DNA of 28,710 bases from a virus. Shown piece by piece: positions 1,263 to 9,072 of this stretch (its first letter is position 1; every line of letters begins with the position of its first letter). The position numbers and the translations under genes were made by a program. Location of the stretch: the IMG/VR virus record IMGVR_UViG_3300030389_000543, positions 1 to 28,710 of that record. The stretch is one strand, 5' to 3'. The notes under the pieces are model-generated. The model saw nothing but the letters and a program-made list of their open reading frames with translations, was not told the origin of the DNA and searched no databases.

Positions 1263-3656
1263 TCAACTAAACACATATGGTGCTAATAAAACTTCACACA
1301 CATCAAAATCCCCTATGTCTGGTGGTACAGGTAGCTTGCTTGAATCATCTAATTGCTCTACTGCTTGCTGGTATAAATCATCTAATAAATTTTTACTGTA
1401 CATATCAACAAAACTTTCTTTTACATATCCTATAAATTCTTCTATATGTGCAGCAGGTGATCCAAAACAATCGTGGATAGTGCAGAACTGATTAAGACCA
1501 CTAGCTTTACTTTTTTCTAACGCTAAATGTACATTAGCAGCATCTAAACTATGAACAAAGTTTGCAGCAAAACTCTGTGTAGATTTTCTTCTGTCAACCT
1601 CTGTAGTATTTGTATTAAGTGACAACTGTATAGTACTGGAGTGAAGTTTCGTGTCAATTCTTTTTACATTAGACTTGTAATAATGTTGCTTAACATAAAA
1701 CTTAGATGGCGTAATCCATGTCATATCTTTATCTTCTTTACCAAAACATCTTGCAATGTCTGCTAAATATTTCATCACTATTATACATTTAGGACATATA
1801 TTATTAACACTTTTTTCTATAATTTTTGCAAGATAATGATTATGTAAGAAGCAATCCTTTTGCCAAGATAGCTCTTCATCGCTTCCCATAAAATAATCTC
1901 GTATGGCATTTGTAATTCCAAAAGTCTTACCACTATATGGAATCATCATCACAGGTTTTTTAATCATTTTTCTTGTGATTACCTGATGATGTTTATACCA
2001 ATCTTCAGCAATGGTATCTGTTTTTTTTGATAGTTCTTTTATTACTTCATCTTTAACTTCTTCATATAAGTCTTCTACCTCGTCATAGTTTTTTAGGTTA
2101 ACCTTACCTGCAAGCTTACTGTCATAAGACATGGCTGCAAAATGTTGAAAGCCATTGTTTGTACCATCAAGCAATACAGGATGCTTGCTTACATAACCGT
2201 AGCCTTGATCCAATAGCTCATTAAAATCTAAACACCAGGCAAGAAATTGGAATGGTTCTTCTGCCTTACTCCATATGCTGACGTAAGATTCTGGACTGCT
2301 TGCTATCTGCCTAGCTAAAGCTTCCCCCTCTGTCTTAGACCATTCAATACGTTCTTCATAACTGTATTTGCTCATACCCCAAGAGTTAGCACCTGCTATA
2401 CCCAACCAATTCTTTGCTTTCTCATCTGTTATTGCTGCACCTTCTGCAAATCTATGCAAAGCTCTAGCTAAATCATTACCCTGTGGATTAAAAATACCCG
2501 ATACATAATAAATTCTGCCTGTAAAATCTGCTTGTGCCACATGCCAAAAAGGTTCTTCTGCAAATTTTGTAGCAGTATCAAGCAACATGATACATTGATA
2601 CCTTTTCATGCGATCATGTGCGTTTTGATCTTTCCTAATATTTTCTTCTCTTCTCCACCACAATCTTGAGTCTTGATTAGTATCAATATCATGTGGCTTT
2701 GGTACTTGTGGTAGTGGTTCAGCATCTATCAGGCAACCTACTTCTATACCTCTATCCCAACAGCTTTGAGCAATTTCAAGAACAGTTGTATTTATCTCCC
2801 ACTTTGTTTGCTGAAGACAATTCAGTGCTGTATAAAGTGCTGTTGGTTTTCTTTTTGTTACTTCTTCGTGGTAAGTAAGGTCTTTTGATTTGATTGCCTT
2901 GATATGTCTAAGTCTTTTTGTATGAAAACCACCTTCAGTAGTGCTAGTCCAATCAATTGGTTGCTCTACGCATGGTTCATACAATGGATAACAAGCTAAT
3001 CTATTTTTGCGTTGTCGTTTTATCCAATCCATAGTGCCTTGCGTAAATTCAATATATGTTTTTGTTTGTTTTCCTGATCTAATGGTTGCAAGTTTTACCA
3101 TACCAACTGCATTAATCATTATATCTATTAGCCTCATTCCAACCTTAAGTTTGTCCTCCTTTGACCACGATTTGAATACAAAACCTCTGTTTCTCATGTG
3201 ACCTATCATCATATTGCGTCTATATCTTTGATGATTAGTATCTGATATATGTTTTTTGACGTTTGTAAAATGTTTTTTATCTTGCTGTTCAAACAAAGTA
3301 AACCTTTGCTCATCTTCAAGCATATGTCCTACTTGTAACGCTGCTTGTGTAGCGGTTTTGTTTTGGCAAGCACTATCAATAACACCTTTAAAAGTAATAA
3401 AAGCTATAACATCAATATCTTTAAATTCATGTAGTTTTATTGCTGCTGTAGCTTTCACTCCTGGAGTACCTCTCCAAGCCCTATCAAGGAACTGTTGTAT
3501 CGCATTAACAAAAGGTAGAAGACCAGCTTTGATCATGGTTTTTGCATAATCTGTTTCTGATTCTCTACCTTTAGATAAGTTGTTGTTGATGTTGCGTTGC
3601 CGTCTGTCAAAACCACGACTCCACATCCGATCTTCTAAATCAGTTTGCTTTGTCAT
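1263..3656 (-). CDS. Single-subunit DNA-dependent RNA polymerase (T7 gp1-like)
   Basis: The T7-type RNA polymerase transcribes the phage middle and late genes from phage promoters. All key positions are present: Asp497 in LLDGTNNG (T7 Asp537), Lys566 and Tyr574 in the TRKMIKKPVMMIPY motif (T7 Lys631, Tyr639), and Asp729 with His728 in TIHDCFG (T7 Asp812, His811). The family signatures ADFTGR...FNPQGND and FVHSLDA are also clear. At 797 residues it is shorter than T7 (883), mainly in the N-terminal promoter/DNA-melting domain, so its promoter sequence probably differs from that of T7. The C-terminus ends in an aromatic YVFS, like the FAFA foot of T7. The gene starts 17 bases inside the upstream zinc-ribbon gene, which suggests translational coupling. 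A 92-base gap with no gene separates it from the ssDNA-binding protein. Confidence 0.97.
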   Translation of the reverse strand: MTKQTDLEDRMWSRGFDRRQRNINNNLSKGRESETDYAKTMIKAGLLPFVNAIQQFLDRAWRGTPGVKATAAIKLHEFKDIDVIAFITFKGVIDSACQNKTATQAALQVGHMLEDEQRFTLFEQQDKKHFTNVKKHISDTNHQRYRRNMMIGHMRNRGFVFKSWSKEDKLKVGMRLIDIMINAVGMVKLATIRSGKQTKTYIEFTQGTMDWIKRQRKNRLACYPLYEPCVEQPIDWTSTTEGGFHTKRLRHIKAIKSKDLTYHEEVTKRKPTALYTALNCLQQTKWEINTTVLEIAQSCWDRGIEVGCLIDAEPLPQVPKPHDIDTNQDSRLWWRREENIRKDQNAHDRMKRYQCIMLLDTATKFAEEPFWHVAQADFTGRIYYVSGIFNPQGNDLARALHRFAEGAAITDEKAKNWLGIAGANSWGMSKYSYEERIEWSKTEGEALARQIASSPESYVSIWSKAEEPFQFLAWCLDFNELLDQGYGYVSKHPVLLDGTNNGFQHFAAMSYDSKLAGKVNLKNYDEVEDLYEEVKDEVIKELSKKTDTIAEDWYKHHQVITRKMIKKPVMMIPYSGKTFGITNAIRDYFMGSDEELSWQKDCFLHNHYLAKIIEKSVNNICPKCIIVMKYLADIARCFGKEDKDMTWITPSKFYVKQHYYKSNVKRIDTKLHSSTIQLSLNTNTTEVDRRKSTQSFAANFVHSLDAANVHLALEKSKASGLNQFCTIHDCFGSPAAHIEEFIGYVKESFVDMYSKNLLDDLYQQAVEQLDDSSKLPVPPDIGDFDVCEVLLAPYVFS

Positions 3657-3900
3657 TAGAGTATTGAGAGATAAGTTCTTTTAGATCAGCTAACAAGTCA
3701 TCGCATTGACCACGCATAATATCAAGTGATTCTTTATCTTTATCAATAAGATTAGCAAGCTCTTCTAAAGCATATTCTCTTGTACTAAAGTTCTTACCAC
3801 AATCCTTGCAAGTCCTAGACCTCCAAAGATATGCAGCTTCCCTTTCTCTTGTTTGTAGGACAGCAGTATTGTCGCTGTTGCAGTTAGGACATTGAATCAT
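3640..3900 (-). CDS. Small zinc-ribbon protein resembling the NrdR N-terminal domain
   Basis: An 86-residue protein whose first ~45 residues form a zinc ribbon: CPNC near residue 4, then a basic stretch (YLWRSR), TCKDCG near residue 31 and FSTREY. This order (MxCPxC, Arg-rich segment, CxxCxxxFxTxE) closely follows the zinc ribbon of NrdR, the bacterial repressor of ribonucleotide reductase genes. The ATP-cone domain of NrdR is absent; instead an acidic, probably helical tail follows. It may be a transcription factor acting on host or phage promoters, but that is inference. It has one of the few strong ribosome-binding sites here (GGGAGGA, 6 bases before ATG 3900) and overlaps the RNA polymerase start by 17 bases, so it probably sets the translation of the polymerase. 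Confidence 0.82.
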   Translation of the reverse strand: MIQCPNCNSDNTAVLQTREREAAYLWRSRTCKDCGKNFSTREYALEELANLIDKDKESLDIMRGQCDDLLADLKELISQYSNDKAN

Positions 3901-4060
3901 TATTGTCCTCCCTTGTCATGTGTAGGTATTTAGATTCAAGTTTTTCAATACAAAGATCCCAGGCATCTTGTTCAGTGATGTCTAGTTTCTTAGCAATAGA
4001 CTGTGCAAGCTCTCTTAAATGAGTAGCTATTGCTGTAAGGTTGTATGGATAATCACTCAT
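3884..4060 (-). CDS. Small protein of 58 residues, unknown function
   Basis: A short open frame from ATG 4060 to TAA 3884 that ends 17 bases inside the zinc-ribbon gene, giving the same type of short overlap seen between the zinc-ribbon gene and RNA polymerase. The product begins MSDYPYNLTAIATHLREL and reads as a small, largely helical protein (heptad-like Leu/Ile spacing, KKLDITEQDAWDLCIEKLE), without cysteines that could bind metal and without a membrane segment. A GGAG lies 13 bases upstream of the ATG, rather far for a normal ribosome-binding site. The overlap, direction and amino-acid composition support a real gene; I do not recognise the family. Confidence 0.6.
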   Translation of the reverse strand: MSDYPYNLTAIATHLRELAQSIAKKLDITEQDAWDLCIEKLESKYLHMTREDNNDSMS

Positions 4061-4103
4061 TTTAATTTTTGTTCTCCATTGTAGTTGTAAGTAAAAAAAA
4101 GGA

Positions 4104-4133
4104 CAGTTTTATTCGTTAACTGCCAACGAGAGA
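4104..4133. repeat. Degenerate third copy of the second hairpin
   Basis: CAGTT, the 9-base loop TTATTCGTT, AACTG, then CCAACGAGAGA. It matches the second hairpin of the repeat unit in loop length, in loop sequence (TTAWTCGTN) and in the 3' tail (CAA-CGAGAGA). The stem bases differ while remaining paired (CAGTT/AACTG instead of TAGTTC/GAACTA). The first hairpin of the unit is not recognisable here. This was aligned by eye. Confidence 0.5.
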
Positions 4134-4213
4134 ATTTAGTGGTAAGGTGTTGCGTTTCAAAAGGTGAAATAGTGCAGCATAACTTGACAATGAGTCGCAA
4201 AACAGAGTTAAAT

Positions 4214-4283
4214 TCACCTCGCAAACCTATTAAGTTATAGAGGTGTTAAGGATAGTTCTTAATCGTAGAACTAACAAGCGAAA
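4214..4283. repeat. Two-hairpin repeat unit, copy 1
   Basis: On the plus strand this unit has stem CACCTC/GAGGTG (loop 19 bases), then stem TAGTTC/GAACTA around the 9-base loop TTAATCGTA, then the tail CAAGCGAAAGA. Copy 2 lies exactly 132 bases further on; the first 36 bases of the two copies are identical. Within the first loop a CTAT/ATAG pair offers an alternative fold. Which strand carries the RNA, if any, is not known; leftward transcription of the early genes would produce the complement. Confidence 0.8.
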
Positions 4284-4345
4284 GAATCTCAATGAGTCGT
4301 GATGCAACATGATACAAAGCTTGACCAAGTGCAGAATCGTCAAGG

Positions 4346-4415
4346 TCACCTCGCAAACCTATTAAGTTATAGAGGTGTTAAAGCTAGTTCTTAATCGTGG
4401 AACTAGCAAGCGAGA
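4346..4415. repeat. Two-hairpin repeat unit, copy 2
   Basis: Direct repeat of 4214-4283. Both stems are kept intact (CACCTC/GAGGTG and TAGTTC/GAACTA). Differences fall outside the stems: the last base of the second loop (TTAATCGTG), the joint between the stems, and two A-to-G changes in the tail (GCAAGCGAGAGA). Conservation of both hairpins argues for a structural role rather than a chance duplication. Confidence 0.8.
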
Positions 4416-4526
4416 GAGGTGAAAAGAAAGGAATCAAATCGTGGCACAATGAATCAAGAAGTACTGAGTCGATGAGAAACACAGTGAGTTAAATCAGTAG
4501 GACTTACACATAAAGATGCCTACAAG

Positions 4527-5045
4527 CTAGTCTTCATCTGGTGGTTTTATTCTTGGAATAGTTCCACCATCTTTTTCTATCCTCATTACTTGTTTCTTTG
4601 CCCCATCAACAGCAGAACAAATAAAAGCATGACGACCTTGGTTTATATGAAGTTGGTCTTTGTCATATTGACTAAGATTATCTTCATCAATCCTATTAAA
4701 CATTTTTCTAGTAGCTTTCTTATGTATGTTTAAACCTGTATAAGCTCTACCATTTAAATAAGATACAGCTTCTTCATCAGTCAAAATATACAAAGAGCCT
4801 TTATCTTGTTTAATAACAACAGGTTTTCCTATAGATACCCTGCTTTCATCTATCCATTCTTTAACTTGTAAAGATCTAAAACTAATATCTCTATTAGAAT
4901 GATTAGATTTAGAAATAAATCCTTTTGTTGATAAAAGAAAGTACATTTCTTCTACCTTTTCAGCATCAATGGTTTGACCTTTTTTAAGATCTCGCCAAGC
5001 AATACCACAAATCTGAATAGGATAATCTTCAGCGTTTGGTTTCAT
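4527..5045 (-). CDS. Early protein of 172 residues, unknown function
   Basis: I do not recognise this family. The protein is soluble, without signal peptide, membrane segment or cysteine-rich motif. It has a mixed alpha/beta look, with a central stretch IGKPVVIKQDKGSLYILTDEEAVSYL, a basic region (NIHKKATRKMFNR) that could touch nucleic acid, and a charged C-terminus ending PPDED. Its ATG overlaps the stop of the upstream 230-aa gene (ATGA), and a good ribosome-binding site AGAGGT lies 6-7 bases upstream. The two products are therefore co-translated and may work together. It is the last gene before the non-coding hairpin region. Confidence 0.75.
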   Translation of the reverse strand: MKPNAEDYPIQICGIAWRDLKKGQTIDAEKVEEMYFLLSTKGFISKSNHSNRDISFRSLQVKEWIDESRVSIGKPVVIKQDKGSLYILTDEEAVSYLNGRAYTGLNIHKKATRKMFNRIDEDNLSQYDKDQLHINQGRHAFICSAVDGAKKQVMRIEKDGGTIPRIKPPDED

Positions 5046-5734
5046 TGATCTACCTCTTTTATACTTGTAACAGCAAAACGCCCATACCTAGGTCGCCAAG
5101 TGCCAAGCCCTTCAGCTTTACCAGCCATATTAGCTATACGTCTTAATTGATCCATGCCCATAAGTTCATCATCAATAATAAGATGAAAAGTAGCTGCCCA
5201 TTTAGGAAACAATAACCTGTTAACCCAAACACCTCTACTTGTAAAAGCTGCAAGTTGATACTTTGGAGTTCTTGAATTAATCATTTCCATAGCATCTTTT
5301 TCTTTATCTTTTTCTGTACCAAACTCAATCTCAGGATTATTGTCAACAAAGATAGCTCTTGATACATCTTTACCTAGCTTCCATTTCTTGGCTGCTTCCT
5401 TCAAGCATCTTTGAAAGTTTGCTCCTGGTAAATAAGGATTACTAAACCCCTGAAATGATACAGAGTTTTCACTTTCATCAAGTGTTACTGTACCTTCATT
5501 TTTCCAGTAGCCAGAGTAAAGCCAATCTAAAACTCTTACAGCCCTATGGACTCCATCAGTTTTTGCTTTACCCTTCTTATCTGTGAAGTAGGTTTTGTGT
5601 TTCGCATACTCCCCCAAAGGATCAGAGTATTGAACATTTCCGCAAAGTAAGGAAGCTGTTCCTTCTACTGCAATTTCAACGGTGCGTTGTGTCATAATAA
5701 ATTTTACTGGGATAAAGGTTCGTGAAGAACCCAT
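5042..5734 (-). CDS. Early conserved phage protein with RAMP-like features
   Basis: The 230-residue product has three blocks that I recognise from a widespread phage family of unknown function: an N-terminal strand with a short motif (VEIAVEGTASLLCGN), a central segment (LPGANFQRCLKEAAKKWKLG), and a C-terminal part with a strand (ATFHLIIDDELM), a helix and the Gly/Arg-rich end EGLGTWRPRYGRFAV. This layout (two strand-helix units plus a glycine-rich loop) is reminiscent of RRM-like Cas7/RAMP folds. That link is my inference and needs structure comparison. The start may be ATG 5695 (residue 14), because the first 13 residues have no family look and a hairpin GGTTC/GAACC (5717-5731) covers their codons. 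It is translationally coupled to the 172-aa gene by an ATGA overlap. Confidence 0.78.
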   Translation of the reverse strand: MGSSRTFIPVKFIMTQRTVEIAVEGTASLLCGNVQYSDPLGEYAKHKTYFTDKKGKAKTDGVHRAVRVLDWLYSGYWKNEGTVTLDESENSVSFQGFSNPYLPGANFQRCLKEAAKKWKLGKDVSRAIFVDNNPEIEFGTEKDKEKDAMEMINSRTPKYQLAAFTSRGVWVNRLLFPKWAATFHLIIDDELMGMDQLRRIANMAGKAEGLGTWRPRYGRFAVTSIKEVDQ

Positions 5735-5802
5735 AAAAACTATTGAAAAAAGTTTTTAAGAGTTCATCTAAAAATTGGCCAAGGATAATAGAGCCAGGAA
5801 TA

Positions 5803-5845
5803 ATAAAAAATAAAAAGAAGAAAAAGCCTAGAGTTAACTAGGCTT
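5803..5845 (-). terminator. Rho-independent terminator after the first early genes
   Basis: A perfect 8-bp stem AAGCCTAG/CTAGGCTT (5824-5831 with 5838-5845) with a 6-base loop. On the minus strand it is followed by a T-rich run (TTTTTCTTCTTTTT, 5812-5825, then more T). The stop codon of the 51-aa gene lies in the loop. It would end or attenuate leftward transcription from the first early genes before the 230-aa gene. Confidence 0.75.
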
Positions 5846-5989
5846 ATGTTCATAACCATATTCATCTGCTAATAAATATAAATCTCTAAACATTTCGTCT
5901 AGTAACTCATCATTAACAGTTGTTGGTTTGTTTTTATAGCTTGCATAGGTTAATGCAGTTCTATAAATTAAATCGGTTTTTGAATACAT
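5834..5989 (-). CDS. Small early protein of 51 residues, unknown function
   Basis: ATG 5989 to TAA 5834. The product begins MYSKTDLIYRTALTYASYK and is acidic in its second half (NDELLDEMFRDLYLLADEYGYE), probably helical, with no membrane segment. It starts 2 bases after the end of the 25-aa membrane peptide and its stop codon sits in the loop of the following terminator, so it closes the first early operon. Such short acidic proteins encoded at the left end of T7-like genomes often bind host enzymes, but nothing in this sequence proves that. Confidence 0.6.
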   Translation of the reverse strand: MYSKTDLIYRTALTYASYKNKPTTVNDELLDEMFRDLYLLADEYGYEHKPS

Positions 5990-5991
5990 AA

Positions 5992-6069
5992 CTATGCGTT
6001 GTTTTTAAAGTTTTTGATAAAGATATACAAGAGAATAACTAAGCATATCCAAACAATTAAAGTAGTCAT
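5992..6069 (-). CDS. 25-residue single-pass membrane peptide
   Basis: ATG 6069 to TAG 5992. The product is a short N-terminus, a hydrophobic segment of about 17 residues (LIVWICLVILLYIFI) and a basic end (KNFKNNA), the layout of a single membrane helix with a positive, probably cytoplasmic, C-terminal tail. The ATG overlaps the TGA of the 76-aa gene (ATGA) and is preceded by the strongest ribosome-binding site of the window. That makes translation of so short a frame credible. Function unknown; it could act on a host membrane protein, or as a small holin or antiholin. Confidence 0.6.
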   Translation of the reverse strand: MTTLIVWICLVILLYIFIKNFKNNA

Positions 6070-6296
6070 AAGTCCTCCTCTGTCATATCTTCAGCTATTC
6101 TCCAACCTATTGAATTTTCTTCTGGAAAATCTAATAGTTCAAGATTGTTATCAAATTTTTCTTTCTTAATATCAAGAGCTTTATAAGCCTCTAATAATTC
6201 CTTATTAGTTGCTTCTTCAGCAAACCAAAGACGCTCTATCTCTGCACGTTTAGCAGCTTTAAGCTTCTTTTCGTAGTCGTATTTGTTTTTAGACAT
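6066..6296 (-). CDS. Small helical early protein of 76 residues, unknown function
   Basis: The product begins MSKNKYDYEKKLKAAKRAEIERL and is mostly charged and helix-forming (a run of Lys/Glu/Ala with Leu spacing typical of a coiled coil through residue ~50), then an acidic end (EENSIGWRIAEDMTEEDL). There is no cysteine, signal peptide or membrane segment. Second gene of the early operon, after the hairpin at 6338-6373; its stop overlaps the start of the membrane peptide. I do not recognise the family. Confidence 0.7.
   Translation of the reverse strand: MSKNKYDYEKKLKAAKRAEIERLWFAEEATNKELLEAYKALDIKKEKFDNNLELLDFPEENSIGWRIAEDMTEEDL
6074..6081 (-). promoter_or_regulatory. Strong ribosome-binding site for the 25-aa peptide
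   Basis: GAGGAGGA lies 5 bases before ATG 6069 on the minus strand. It is nearly the full anti-Shine-Dalgarno complement, whereas most genes here have none. It lies inside the last codons of the upstream gene. Confidence 0.75.
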
Positions 6297-6337
6297 AATT
6301 AAAAATAAATAACTGGGCGGTTAAGGTTCACTTGTTA

Positions 6338-6373
6338 AGAAAACCCTTTAAAACCTCCGCAGAGGCTTTAAGG
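6338..6373 (-). terminator. Terminator-like or attenuator hairpin after the first early gene
   Basis: On the minus strand CCCTTAAAGCCTC pairs with GAGGTTTTAAAGGG around a TGCG loop, with one bulge and one wobble position, followed by TTTTCT. The U-tract is short, so it may only partly stop transcription and so lower expression of the genes that follow. Confidence 0.6.
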
Positions 6374-6384
6374 GATTATCTAAG

Positions 6385-6822
6385 TTATTGCCCGAAGTAG
6401 AAACAATTACAGAACCACTCAAGGGCTTCATAATCGCTTGTAATGTTTGGGCTTTCATCAGCATAAGTTGAATTAAGCTGTAAAGATTCCCAAGGTGTAC
6501 CCCAATCTTGATATTGAATCTCAATATCTGTTGGTTGGTCGTACTGGTCTAACTTGCCGATAATCTGGCAAGCTGGCCCACCTGTAGAAAGTAATATTTT
6601 AAATTCTTCAGGCCTGAAATCTGCTTCTAATGACAAATACCAACCACTTCTAAATTCAACACTTAGGGCTTCTTCTCTTGCTTTCTCAACTATTGCTTCT
6701 TCTGTATCAAGATTAGAAACAAAAGCTGAAGCATTTTCTTTGTATTCTCTATAAAGTTCTTTTATAGATTCAAGCTGACCTCTTGCATTGGTTATTGCAT
6801 GAGCTTCTTTTGTTGCAGTCAT
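6385..6822 (-). CDS. Conserved phage protein of 145 residues, first early gene
   Basis: I recognise the core of this protein as a family spread over phages of many hosts but without known function. The typical segments are SVEFRSGWYLS, FKILLSTGGPACQIIGKL and IEIQYQDWGTPWESL, and the end is aromatic (WFCNCFYFGQ). The N-terminal third is a helical, Glu/Lys-rich region. No catalytic motif is evident. It is the first gene after the genome-end region, 23 bases downstream of an 18-base palindrome (6845-6862), and is followed by an attenuator-like hairpin. That position suggests immediate-early expression from a host-type promoter. No clear ribosome-binding site precedes ATG 6822. Confidence 0.85.
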   Translation of the reverse strand: MTATKEAHAITNARGQLESIKELYREYKENASAFVSNLDTEEAIVEKAREEALSVEFRSGWYLSLEADFRPEEFKILLSTGGPACQIIGKLDQYDQPTDIEIQYQDWGTPWESLQLNSTYADESPNITSDYEALEWFCNCFYFGQ

Positions 6823-6844
6823 TTGATTAATAAGTTCTGGGAAT

Positions 6845-6862
6845 AGTACTAGGTCTAGTACT
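6845..6862. promoter_or_regulatory. 18-base palindrome upstream of the first early gene
   Basis: AGTACTAGGTCTAGTACT consists of perfect 8-base arms around a 2-base centre. It lies in the leader of the 145-aa gene and looks like a binding site for a dimeric protein, or a compact RNA hairpin. No repressor gene is recognised in the window. Confidence 0.5.
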
Positions 6863-6935
6863 GATTGAATTATTACTATGAGTTGGCTATCGATAAAATA
6901 AAAACATAAATATCTTTACACTCTGTAACAATAGA

Positions 6936-6951
6936 CCCTATATATCCCCCC
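6936..6951 (-). promoter_or_regulatory. Candidate phage RNA polymerase promoter, copy A
   Basis: On the minus strand GGGGGGATATATAGGG. It shares six Gs, a 3-base spacer and TATAGGG with copy B at 7309-7328. TATAGGG is the initiating core of the T7 promoter (bases -4 to +3). It points into the early genes. Untested; the upstream specificity region cannot be compared with a known promoter of this phage. Confidence 0.35.
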
Positions 6952-7027
6952 TCTCTGTCCAATTATTGTCCTTTTACTGTCCAAAACAAGATAAAAACCC
7001 CTAAACCCTAGTCATAAGTCAACTTGC

Positions 7028-7050
7028 AGTGCTGTCTCTATGACAGTACT
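7028..7050. other. Stem-loop in the genome-end region
   Basis: AGTGCTGTC and GACAGTACT pair over 9 positions (one G-T wobble) around the loop TCTAT. No T-run follows on the minus strand, so it is not a clear terminator. It may be an RNA processing or packaging feature. Confidence 0.45.
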
Positions 7051-7167
7051 ACTATAAAAAGACTCTATATATAGCTTTATTTCTACAAAAAATTAACCTA
7101 TATGGGGAAAAATAAGATTTATATATATGCGTAAGCCCTTCAAATTTTTGTGTCAAAAATATTTTGT

Positions 7168-7219
7168 AAGACCCTATGTAGGACCACCCAGAAGGAACTA
7201 TAAGGGTCTTATAGGGTCT
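7168..7219. repeat. Mutually exclusive stem elements
   Basis: AGACCCTAT (7169-7177) pairs perfectly with ATAGGGTCT (7211-7219), or, shifted by one base, AAGACCCT (7168-7175) pairs with AGGGTCTT (7203-7210). The 3' arms also contain the hairpin CTATAA/TTATAG (7198-7214). Only one of these folds can form at a time. Confidence 0.55.
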
Positions 7220-7308
7220 AGTGTGAAGTGAAAGAACCTATGAATTAATTATAATGATGATGTTGATGAAGTCAAATCTATGGTCTGTCTATGGATGAAT
7301 TTTAACGA

Positions 7309-7328
7309 CCCCCCCTATAGTCCCCCCC
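7309..7328 (-). promoter_or_regulatory. Candidate phage RNA polymerase promoter, copy B, between two G7 tracts
   Basis: On the minus strand a run of seven G, then ACTATA, then seven G. ACTATAGGG equals bases -6 to +3 of the T7 promoter. It lies just downstream of the large terminase, comparable to the T7 promoter/origin near the right genome end. The two G7 runs could also fold as a G-quadruplex. Confidence 0.4.
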
Positions 7329-7350
7329 ATGGTCTATCTACAAGTGCAGG

Positions 7351-9072
7351 TTAATAAGAATTACTTATAAAACCATCGTTAGGGGTATTAGAATTACTTA
7401 TTTGATTAGGAGACATTCCAAAAGCTGCTTGAGTGATAGTGTTATTCATAAGAGAACCCCAGTTATCTAGGTGTACTCTTAGTAATTCATCTTTACGAGA
7501 TCTTATATTACGGTCTTCATCCTGGTTCATGTACTCAGTCCAGTAGGCTACAGCACCAGATAGAGCGTCTAAGATGTCATCATGTACTAAAGAACCTCTA
7601 TGTCTAGTGATTCTGGACATTTGATAGAAGAGTTGAAGTTTTAGTTTACGTTCTGGAGCTTCATTAGGGTTAGATCTATAGTCTTTTTCTACGACTTTTC
7701 TGTCGATTATGAGCCTATGAGAGTTCATTACAGGTTCTAAAGTATCTATTATGCGTAGTTCTTTGGTTTTATTATTTCTAACGTCTTGTACTTCGCAGGG
7801 GTGATACCTCATAAGGAAAGGTTTCATTAGTTCAGCAAACATACCACCACCCATATTGGATTCTACGAGGATGGTATTGACTTTATTAGTCTTAGCTATC
7901 TTAGATAGGGTTGTTAATACTGCGTCACTGTAACCACCGTTAAGACCCCCTGCATCAGGAACGTATAAGTTTCCATTAAGCATCTTTACAACAGCGTAAC
8001 CAGTGGCATCACGACCCTTTCCAGAGGGGTCTACGAACATTACAGAGCCTGTATATTCAATCCAATCACCAAATTGTTGGGCAGGTCTATAAAAATGATC
8101 ACCATTAAACCCTACACAAGGTAATTCTTTGATTACATATTCTGGTGAAGATGACCATATGACCTTTTCTGGTGCATGGTCAGGGTTAACTGAAGATATT
8201 ATTAGGTCTGATAGTTTTAAAGGGTATCTATCCTGGTCAGATAAGCTAGTGTCTAGCATAAACTGTAAAGAAAACCCAGAACGGCCATAGGAAGCCTCAC
8301 GTTCCATCAAATCTATTGAACTGAATCTTTCTGGGTCAACAGGTTCTTGAGGCTTTACAAGCTCTTGTACAAGCTTCTCTGTTAACTTAGGAGCTAATCT
8401 GTCTCCATAGTTGTTTTTAAGTTCTGGATAACGTGCAGTCCAAATGCGTGTTGTGTATCCACGTTCTTCTAGTGTTAGATATAAAGATTGTTCTGTTTGT
8501 GGTGTACCAAGAAAGGTTATCTTACCGTTAGGTTTTAGGATTGCATCAAATTCTTTTACAGCTTCACTTAACTTGTCTCTCATCGGTTGAGTAAAGCTGT
8601 TATTCGGCACTTCTACGTCATCTGCTATGACTTCATCTGCACGACTACCAGCCATTTGCCCTAGAACACCCTGAGACTTTACTGAAGGTGCGTGATCAGC
8701 GTGTGCAGGGCCAACATCAAAACTTATCTTACTGTTTCGTTGAGAGTCATCTGGTCGTAATGGAGCAAGTATAGGCATCTCATTGATCAATCTCATAGTG
8801 AAAGTAGAGAAGTTATCGGCTCTATCCTTACTTGCAGAGACAACAAGGAACTTTAATTGTGGATTCATCCTTAGTTTCCATACAACATAGGTAGATGTAA
8901 TCCAACTTTTACCTACCCCTCTAAAGGCTTGTATAATCTTTCTACGAGGACCGTACTGTAAATACTCAGCTATGTCTAATTGAACTGGTGTGGGGTCAGG
9001 TAGGTTAAGATGTCGCCAAGTTATGATTAGAAAGTATCTAAAATCTTGTAATTTTTCTGGTAAAGGTTGCAA
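7351..9072 (-). CDS. Large terminase subunit (T7 gp19-like)
   Basis: The packaging motor ATPase and the nuclease that cuts concatemers into unit genomes. ATPase motifs: Walker A FRGVGKS (residues 50-56), Walker B VIADD (148-152), coupling motif FLGTPQ (188-193). The nuclease domain has Asp348 in FVDPSG, Glu404 in VESN and the HDD pair (498-499), the acidic triad of RNase H-fold terminases. The 573-residue length agrees with T7 gp19 (586). The start is TTG 9072: there is no ATG until well inside the ATPase domain, and the preceding codon is the stop TAA of the small terminase in the same frame. Readthrough of that stop would give a fused protein. The Asn/Ser-rich C-terminal tail lies next to the genome-end region. 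Confidence 0.96.
   Translation of the reverse strand: MQPLPEKLQDFRYFLIITWRHLNLPDPTPVQLDIAEYLQYGPRRKIIQAFRGVGKSWITSTYVVWKLRMNPQLKFLVVSASKDRADNFSTFTMRLINEMPILAPLRPDDSQRNSKISFDVGPAHADHAPSVKSQGVLGQMAGSRADEVIADDVEVPNNSFTQPMRDKLSEAVKEFDAILKPNGKITFLGTPQTEQSLYLTLEERGYTTRIWTARYPELKNNYGDRLAPKLTEKLVQELVKPQEPVDPERFSSIDLMEREASYGRSGFSLQFMLDTSLSDQDRYPLKLSDLIISSVNPDHAPEKVIWSSSPEYVIKELPCVGFNGDHFYRPAQQFGDWIEYTGSVMFVDPSGKGRDATGYAVVKMLNGNLYVPDAGGLNGGYSDAVLTTLSKIAKTNKVNTILVESNMGGGMFAELMKPFLMRYHPCEVQDVRNNKTKELRIIDTLEPVMNSHRLIIDRKVVEKDYRSNPNEAPERKLKLQLFYQMSRITRHRGSLVHDDILDALSGAVAYWTEYMNQDEDRNIRSRKDELLRVHLDNWGSLMNNTITQAAFGMSPNQISNSNTPNDGFISNSY

Follow-up and report, generated by a model that had tools for sequence, protein, structure and literature searches.

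The stretch of viral DNA analysed here, 28,710 nt from the IMG/VR record IMGVR_UViG_3300030389_000543 and referred to below as the window, very probably carries a VIPR system. The system would belong to a T7-like marine phage, most likely one that infects Prochlorococcus, and would disable genes in accessory islands. The analysis is computational throughout, and the repressive activity is carried over from the VIPR system of Escherichia phage SUSP1.

VIPR is an RNA-guided phage system described in a 2026 preprint, and comprises a RAMP protein (Vipr), an accessory gene (vap) and vrRNAs (PMC13142463). Vipr is a RAMP homologue with a single RRM core, a G-loop and a thumb; a vrRNA has 9–16 YNNGG repeats and ends in a 3′ tail that forms a pseudoknot. 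Pairing with double-stranded DNA is through the NN dinucleotides; each repeat passes over one target base, which is mostly a codon third position (PMC13142463). For SUSP1, whose system is type II among seven types, RNA binding, DNA binding, repression and enhancement by Vap1 have all been shown, and 18 of the 20 targets of its clade lie on a satellite (PMC13142463). The earlier VIPR targets were determined in E. coli and Pseudomonas; the words Prochlorococcus, marine, cyanophage and tycheposon are all absent from the main text of the preprint (PMC13142463). A literature search on the names of the system, in a limited collection, returned no other paper. By homology, architecture and code, the window locus appears to be a member of VIPR; by repeat consensus, partner protein and targets, it appears to be a variant.

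The Vipr homologue and its partner

The open reading frame at 5042–5734 on the minus strand was confirmed, and encodes 230 aa with the C-terminus ...GLGTWRPRYGRFAVTSIKEVDQ; the motif LGTWRPRYGRF is nearly invariant among the relatives of this protein. Because most relatives align only from the conserved Met14 onwards, the real start is probably there (position 5695), giving a protein of 217 aa. The frame overlaps by ATGA a 172-aa frame at 4527–5045, also on the minus strand. The gene, its C-terminal motif and its coupling to the 172-aa partner, as described in an earlier note on this DNA, are all present.

The 230-aa protein belongs with phrog_4652, a PHROG family of unknown function (E 7e-27), and a Pfam search with it returned no family. 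The sole clear match in the PDB was chain 36pp_D of entry 36pp, named 'SUSP1 Vipr protein' (phmmer E 7e-13; profile E 7e-20). When profiles were compared with hhalign, the alignment to SUSP1 Vipr covered columns 5–211 (99.1%, E 1e-18), and the conserved GLGTWRPRYGRF of the marine protein lined up with GVGDWRPRFGRF. On these comparisons, the window Vipr is homologous to SUSP1 Vipr over its length.

An AlphaFold model of Vipr, with 28 sequences as input, had a pLDDT of 84 and a pTM of 0.81. The best 50 rows from Foldseek were Csm, Cmr, type VII, gRAMP/Cas7-11 and type IV RAMP subunits, the best match having an E of 8.8e-6 and a TM-score near 0.4. With VIA-align, the model matched the Csm subunit Csm3 at Z 10.9 over 157 residues (rmsd 3.3, 12% identity). 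We therefore annotate the gene product as a predicted RAMP/Csm3-like RNA-guided protein. The earlier note had proposed an RRM-like Cas7/RAMP fold, and would have abandoned it had structure prediction and Foldseek produced no RRM-like fold; the match of the model to Csm3/Cas7, together with the homology to a solved RAMP-type Vipr, bears the proposal out. The RRM-based RAMP fold predicted for residues 1–217 of Vipr is common to Csm3/Cas7 of Class 1 CRISPR (type III-A and others). However, the guide in those systems consists of spacer plus repeat, whereas here there would be a repeat-coded RNA with neither a CRISPR array nor a cas operon: no CRISPR array was found among the repeats of 3900–7360, and the neighbouring proteins tested gave no cas match.

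In all marine relatives whose sequence extends far enough, the 172-aa partner gene comes after vipr. Its model had a pLDDT of 84 and a pTM of 0.66 and found no confident match to a known fold (best Foldseek E 0.59; best VIA Z 6.8, over a helical stretch). Winged-helix proteins are scattered through the structure-match lists, which we do not take as evidence for that identity, and the Pfam match to CAT_RBD (E 0.069) is noise. Comparison with SUSP1 Vap1 by hhalign was not significant (E 0.054, probability 1). The partner appears to occupy the vap position of VIPR, as a predicted accessory protein with no detectable kinship to SUSP1 Vap1.

Inspection of vipr, vap1 and the flanking spaces of SUSP1 revealed a hairpin, GG-rich repeats and a tail, a plan that the window shares. 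Full-length Vipr homology, the order vipr, vap and downstream array, the 5′ hairpin, the pentanucleotide repeats and the 3′ pseudoknot tail are alike in both.

The putative guide RNA array and its marine relatives

The earlier note had pointed to a repeated, structured RNA region next to the gene pair. The region is real: it lies on the minus strand, as does the pair, directly downstream of it, and contains two 79-nt copies (4207–4285 and 4339–4417) that are 90% identical. A copy spans a unit's tail and the hairpin of the unit that follows, and the two copies thus mark out three units. The region is best described as an array of three putative guide RNAs, each with a 5′ hairpin, some 12–16 five-base repeats and an H-type pseudoknot tail. 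Unit 1 (4383–4523) has its hairpin at 4523–4497, about 15 NN-YDY repeats and its pseudoknot tail at 4413–4383; unit 2 (4252–4377) has its hairpin at 4377–4347, 12 repeats and a tail starting at 4281; and unit 3 (4102–4245) has its hairpin at 4245–4215, about 14–16 repeats and its tail at 4129–4102. Behind the last tail is a terminator-like run of eight T on the same strand (4093–4100). The hairpins ahead of the units are imperfect, and the SUSP1 hairpin is comparable. They may be a processing or loading signal; we did not see 5′ hairpins described in the main text of the preprint (PMC13142463).

A scan of the window against Rfam returned no family, a match to sbrA at a permissive threshold being a chance one, and hammerhead ribozyme motifs, looked for by eye, were not seen. 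Taken by itself, the window shows weak five-base periodicity (unit 1, P 0.024; unit 3, P 0.17, not significant; these were the two units evaluated, unit 2 being identical in the related locus L007); the periodicity became clear only once relatives were included. Unit 2 stands beside different neighbours in L007, and guides therefore seem to move as modules.

Two scans of IMG/VR for relatives of vipr yielded overlapping sets of 17 and 77 loci. The partner gene was present in 85 of 96 matched loci, a count that includes the window and two SUSP1 stretches; the 11 loci without it are nine contig ends and those two SUSP1 stretches. We called a locus testable if the partner was present with 350 nt or more of sequence behind it, a requirement of which 11 deduplicated loci fell short. 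At least one vrRNA unit was found within 1.5 kb in 67 of the 68 deduplicated testable loci, with a mean of 3.4 units; the sole testable locus without a detected unit was L046. That 67 of 68 testable marine loci keep the entire layout is far beyond chance. The suggestion that the pair and the repeated RNA form one system, which the earlier note had labelled speculation, therefore stands, and the finding named in advance as speaking against it, a pair that occurs generally without the RNA element, did not materialise. Some loci have an extra unit upstream of vipr, as does SUSP1 (15 of 54 testable loci; for example with tails at L008 2101, L009 3302, L011 5975 and L012 1529).

Across the marine relatives the repeats keep a fixed register, two bases ahead of the tail. 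Phase 5 was a pyrimidine in 12 of 12 repeats in 145 of 243 candidate units, compared with an average of 1.4 and a maximum of 6 in shuffles. In the 218 units with at least 9 of 12 phase-5 pyrimidines (25 of the 243 candidates being left out), phases 1 and 2, the NN, are nearly even in composition, whilst pyrimidines make up 79% of phase 3 and 96% of phase 5 (Y 0.958), and G or T 85% of phase 4. The marine triplet that alternates with NN is thus YDY and not the GGY of VIPR. Since the preprint, which gives GGY as the repeat triplet, also allows 'a related consensus' (PMC13142463), we treat YDY as a variant within VIPR rather than as grounds for exclusion.

The tails were located without requiring a second stem beforehand. 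A second stem of at least six Watson–Crick pairs was nonetheless present in 135 of 166 units, against 2.8 expected, with 53 different arms. Between related guides (36 pairs of 70–80% identity, not independent of each other), differences per site at phases 1 to 5 were 0.24, 0.16, 0.36, 0.26 and 0.27, compared with 0.74, 0.73, 0.66, 0.60 and 0.46 between unrelated pairs. Relative to unrelated guides, the NN thus appear better kept than the spacers, as a guide code requires.

Predicted guide targets in Prochlorococcus islands

The RNA polymerase gene of the phage lies a short way downstream of the VIPR operon. The nearest isolate is Prochlorococcus phage P-SCSP2 (terminase 78%, RNA polymerase 45%), and the window phage is most likely a T7-like marine phage infecting Prochlorococcus. 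In P-SCSP2, an integrase gene (L172 892–1731) precedes the RNA polymerase gene, in the place where the window phage has VIPR. Just before the RNA polymerase gene, the window encodes an 86-aa zinc-ribbon protein like the N-terminal domain of NrdR (3640–3900; Pfam E 6e-10). The window also has AGACCCTATATA-type repeats with an inverted copy (6933–7224), possibly a genome end or a promoter region, in the gap that separates the terminase gene from the genes lying upstream of the RNA polymerase gene. A tRNA search found none in the window, L002, L007, L011 or P-SCSP2.

The three guides of the window were read by the published one-base-skip rule. For unit 2, a search of 266 Prochlorococcus genomes found a site with 23 of 24 positions matching, where 0.002–0.003 sites with at most one mismatch are expected. 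For unit 3, a scan of bacterial genomes with nine NN gave 30 stretches, of which the best two by extension were Prochlorococcus single-cell genomes matching at 22 of 22 positions, with eleven NN and in frame; a third stretch equalled them in total extension score but lacked the unbroken run. For unit 1, one gene matched at 21 of 24 positions in 7 of the 266 genomes (expected approximately 0.14–0.18; backward control 0), the seven sites being in one homologous gene and hence not independent. Across the 266 genomes, unit 3 again had its two exact sites, and further matches with three mismatches were near background: 12 for unit 3 (backward control 5), 1 for unit 2 (control 2) and one further for unit 1. 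Four scans of IMG/VR with 8-NN cores gave 40 (unit 1), 31 (unit 3), 35 (unit 2) and 3 stretches (a guide common to several relatives), none of which extended convincingly. Nothing stood out when all guides were compared with the loci gathered in the IMG/VR target scans and the nearest-isolate search, and P-SCSP2 had no guide site above the shuffled level. Taken together, the three window guides appear to match Prochlorococcus gene islands that are mobile or accessory.

We also set 207 marine guides against 255,507 bases surrounding the window-guide sites, regions picked partly because the window guides matched them. There were 53 runs of at least 17 at a skip of one base, compared with 0 at skip 0, 0 at skip 2 and 1 at skip 3; fourfold shuffled guides gave 1 such run against the 53 real ones. 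When the four guides that had selected the regions were removed, 41 of the 53 matches remained, from 26 of 203 guides; that no more than these 26 match within the 255 kb counts against the reading. The skipped base was a codon third position at 35 of 36 sites with an open reading frame (23 sense and 12 antisense), with three further sites having no frame call, and sites that recur in related genomes are not independent. A target would therefore stay recognisable after most synonymous changes. SUSP1 likewise has targets read with one skipped base on either DNA strand and a skip at the codon third position. These target statistics indicate, in silico, that the one-base-skip code fits the marine guides.

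The target of unit 2 is a 127-aa open reading frame within an 11.4-kb island (L267 2806–14157) that lies between identical 96-bp copies including tRNA-Thr and carries a tyrosine integrase (PF00589). Guides of different phages match seven places in this island, counting two rows 6 bases apart as one, and these include both strands of the integrase gene. The integrase is only distantly related to that of P-SCSP2 (25%, E 4e-9). A tycheposon is defined in PMC10872708 by a tRNA border and a tyrosine recombinase; with its tRNA-Thr direct repeats, tyrosine integrase and cargo, the L267 island resembles the tycheposons of Prochlorococcus. The operons targeted by units 1 and 3 lie in a variable segment between conserved flanks, and no integrase is visible among the reading frames listed for their target stretches (L240 and L270).

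A PD-(D/E)XK, Cas4-like nuclease gene in L270 and L276 is matched by three related guides, the family assignment coming from a scan of the L270 protein. The operon-bearing segments of L270 have no counterpart between the conserved flanks in L274 and G001. No known families were found in the unit-3 target operon, and its 153-aa gene occurs in 6 of the 266 Prochlorococcus genomes. A search of the target operons with defence models gave no confident match except the Cas4-like/DruK-like nuclease, plus a marginal one to Cas5_IIId (E 0.0057); an IMG/VR scan for the targeted nuclease and integrase found no close relative. A guide of L007 and L027 (tail at 3896) matches, with a 20-base run, an EVE-domain gene in the conserved flank beside the island (L241 2055–2099; L242 1540–1584; L269 1222–1266; L270 14455–14499; L274 13688–13732). 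A gene in a conserved flank is an unexpected target for VIPR. The integrase-bearing island speaks for mobile elements as targets, whilst the nuclease operon and the EVE-domain gene leave room for counter-defence.

Proposed role and alternatives

The position of the operon in what is presumably the early region, upstream of the RNA polymerase gene, makes expression on phage entry probable. By analogy with SUSP1, Vipr subunits would assemble on each vrRNA, with the pseudoknot tail capping the 3′ end. The variable NN would then pair with one strand of double-stranded DNA, one target base being skipped at each step, and the bound complex would repress or otherwise disable accessory-island genes, including those of the tycheposon-type tRNA-Thr island with its integrase. 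Silencing of the islands would stop rivals, satellites or island-borne defences, to the benefit of the phage. The role of the system is likely to be early silencing of rival mobile elements. Of the roles proposed in the earlier note, 'RNA binding, host takeover or anti-defence', what we retain is a more specific proposal: RNA-guided recognition of DNA, directed at host islands that are mobile or accessory. As in SUSP1, the guides of the marine clade appear to converge on rival elements. The marine clade differs from SUSP1 in its NN-YDY repeats, which are GGY there, in a Vap that looks unrelated, and in being carried by a T7-like marine phage with Prochlorococcus islands as targets.

The system could instead be a VIPR whose guides serve counter-defence or host takeover, silencing accessory and possibly defensive operons of the host rather than satellites. 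We hold this to be possible, if somewhat doubtful. The targets of units 1 and 3 lie in small operons that lack a visible integrase and are sporadic in the genus, one targeted operon has the PD-(D/E)XK/Cas4-like nuclease, and the guide of another phage matches the EVE-domain gene. However, beyond the nuclease and the marginal Cas5_IIId, the defence models gave nothing confident; unit 2 and many other guides fall on the integrase-bearing tRNA island, several within the integrase gene itself; and the published SUSP1 guides are aimed at a satellite (PMC13142463).

Two further readings would dispense with foreign targets or with a code. A RAMP protein and structured RNA that regulate the phage's own genes would suit an operon adjoining the RNA polymerase gene, but 0.46 Mb of the phages' own loci, searched at a skip of one base, contained no guide site that rose above background, and guides match strongly in Prochlorococcus islands, which makes self-regulation highly unlikely. 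It is barely credible that the guide–target matches reflect coincidence or shared sequence ancestry instead of a code. Guides and targets are both AT-rich and the regions were partly selected by the matches; yet the excess is seen only under the one-base-skip reading, disappears with shuffled guides and places the skipped base at the codon third position in all but one of the 36 sites, and for unit 1 backward patterns gave no 0- or 1-mismatch-level matches comparable to the real sites.

Returning to the silencing of rival elements, we think it probable that T7-like cyanophages of the ocean carry small, mosaic libraries of noncontiguous guides, swapped as modules, with which they would silence mobile Prochlorococcus islands in advance, among them tycheposon-type integrases and nuclease operons, at wobble-tolerant sites. 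That an independent clade from the ocean, whose repeat consensus differs, fits the same one-base-skip code supports, without an experiment, the generality of the code. The decoded targets also supply a host assignment for an uncultivated phage. By linking these phages to Prochlorococcus islands and to a tycheposon-type element, they make the encounter of a lytic phage with the mobile elements of its host testable site by site. Prochlorococcus, a photosynthetic cell, is very abundant in the ocean. If our reading is true, VIPR would be a standing front in the conflict of phages with the elements by which the pangenome of this phototroph is shaped.
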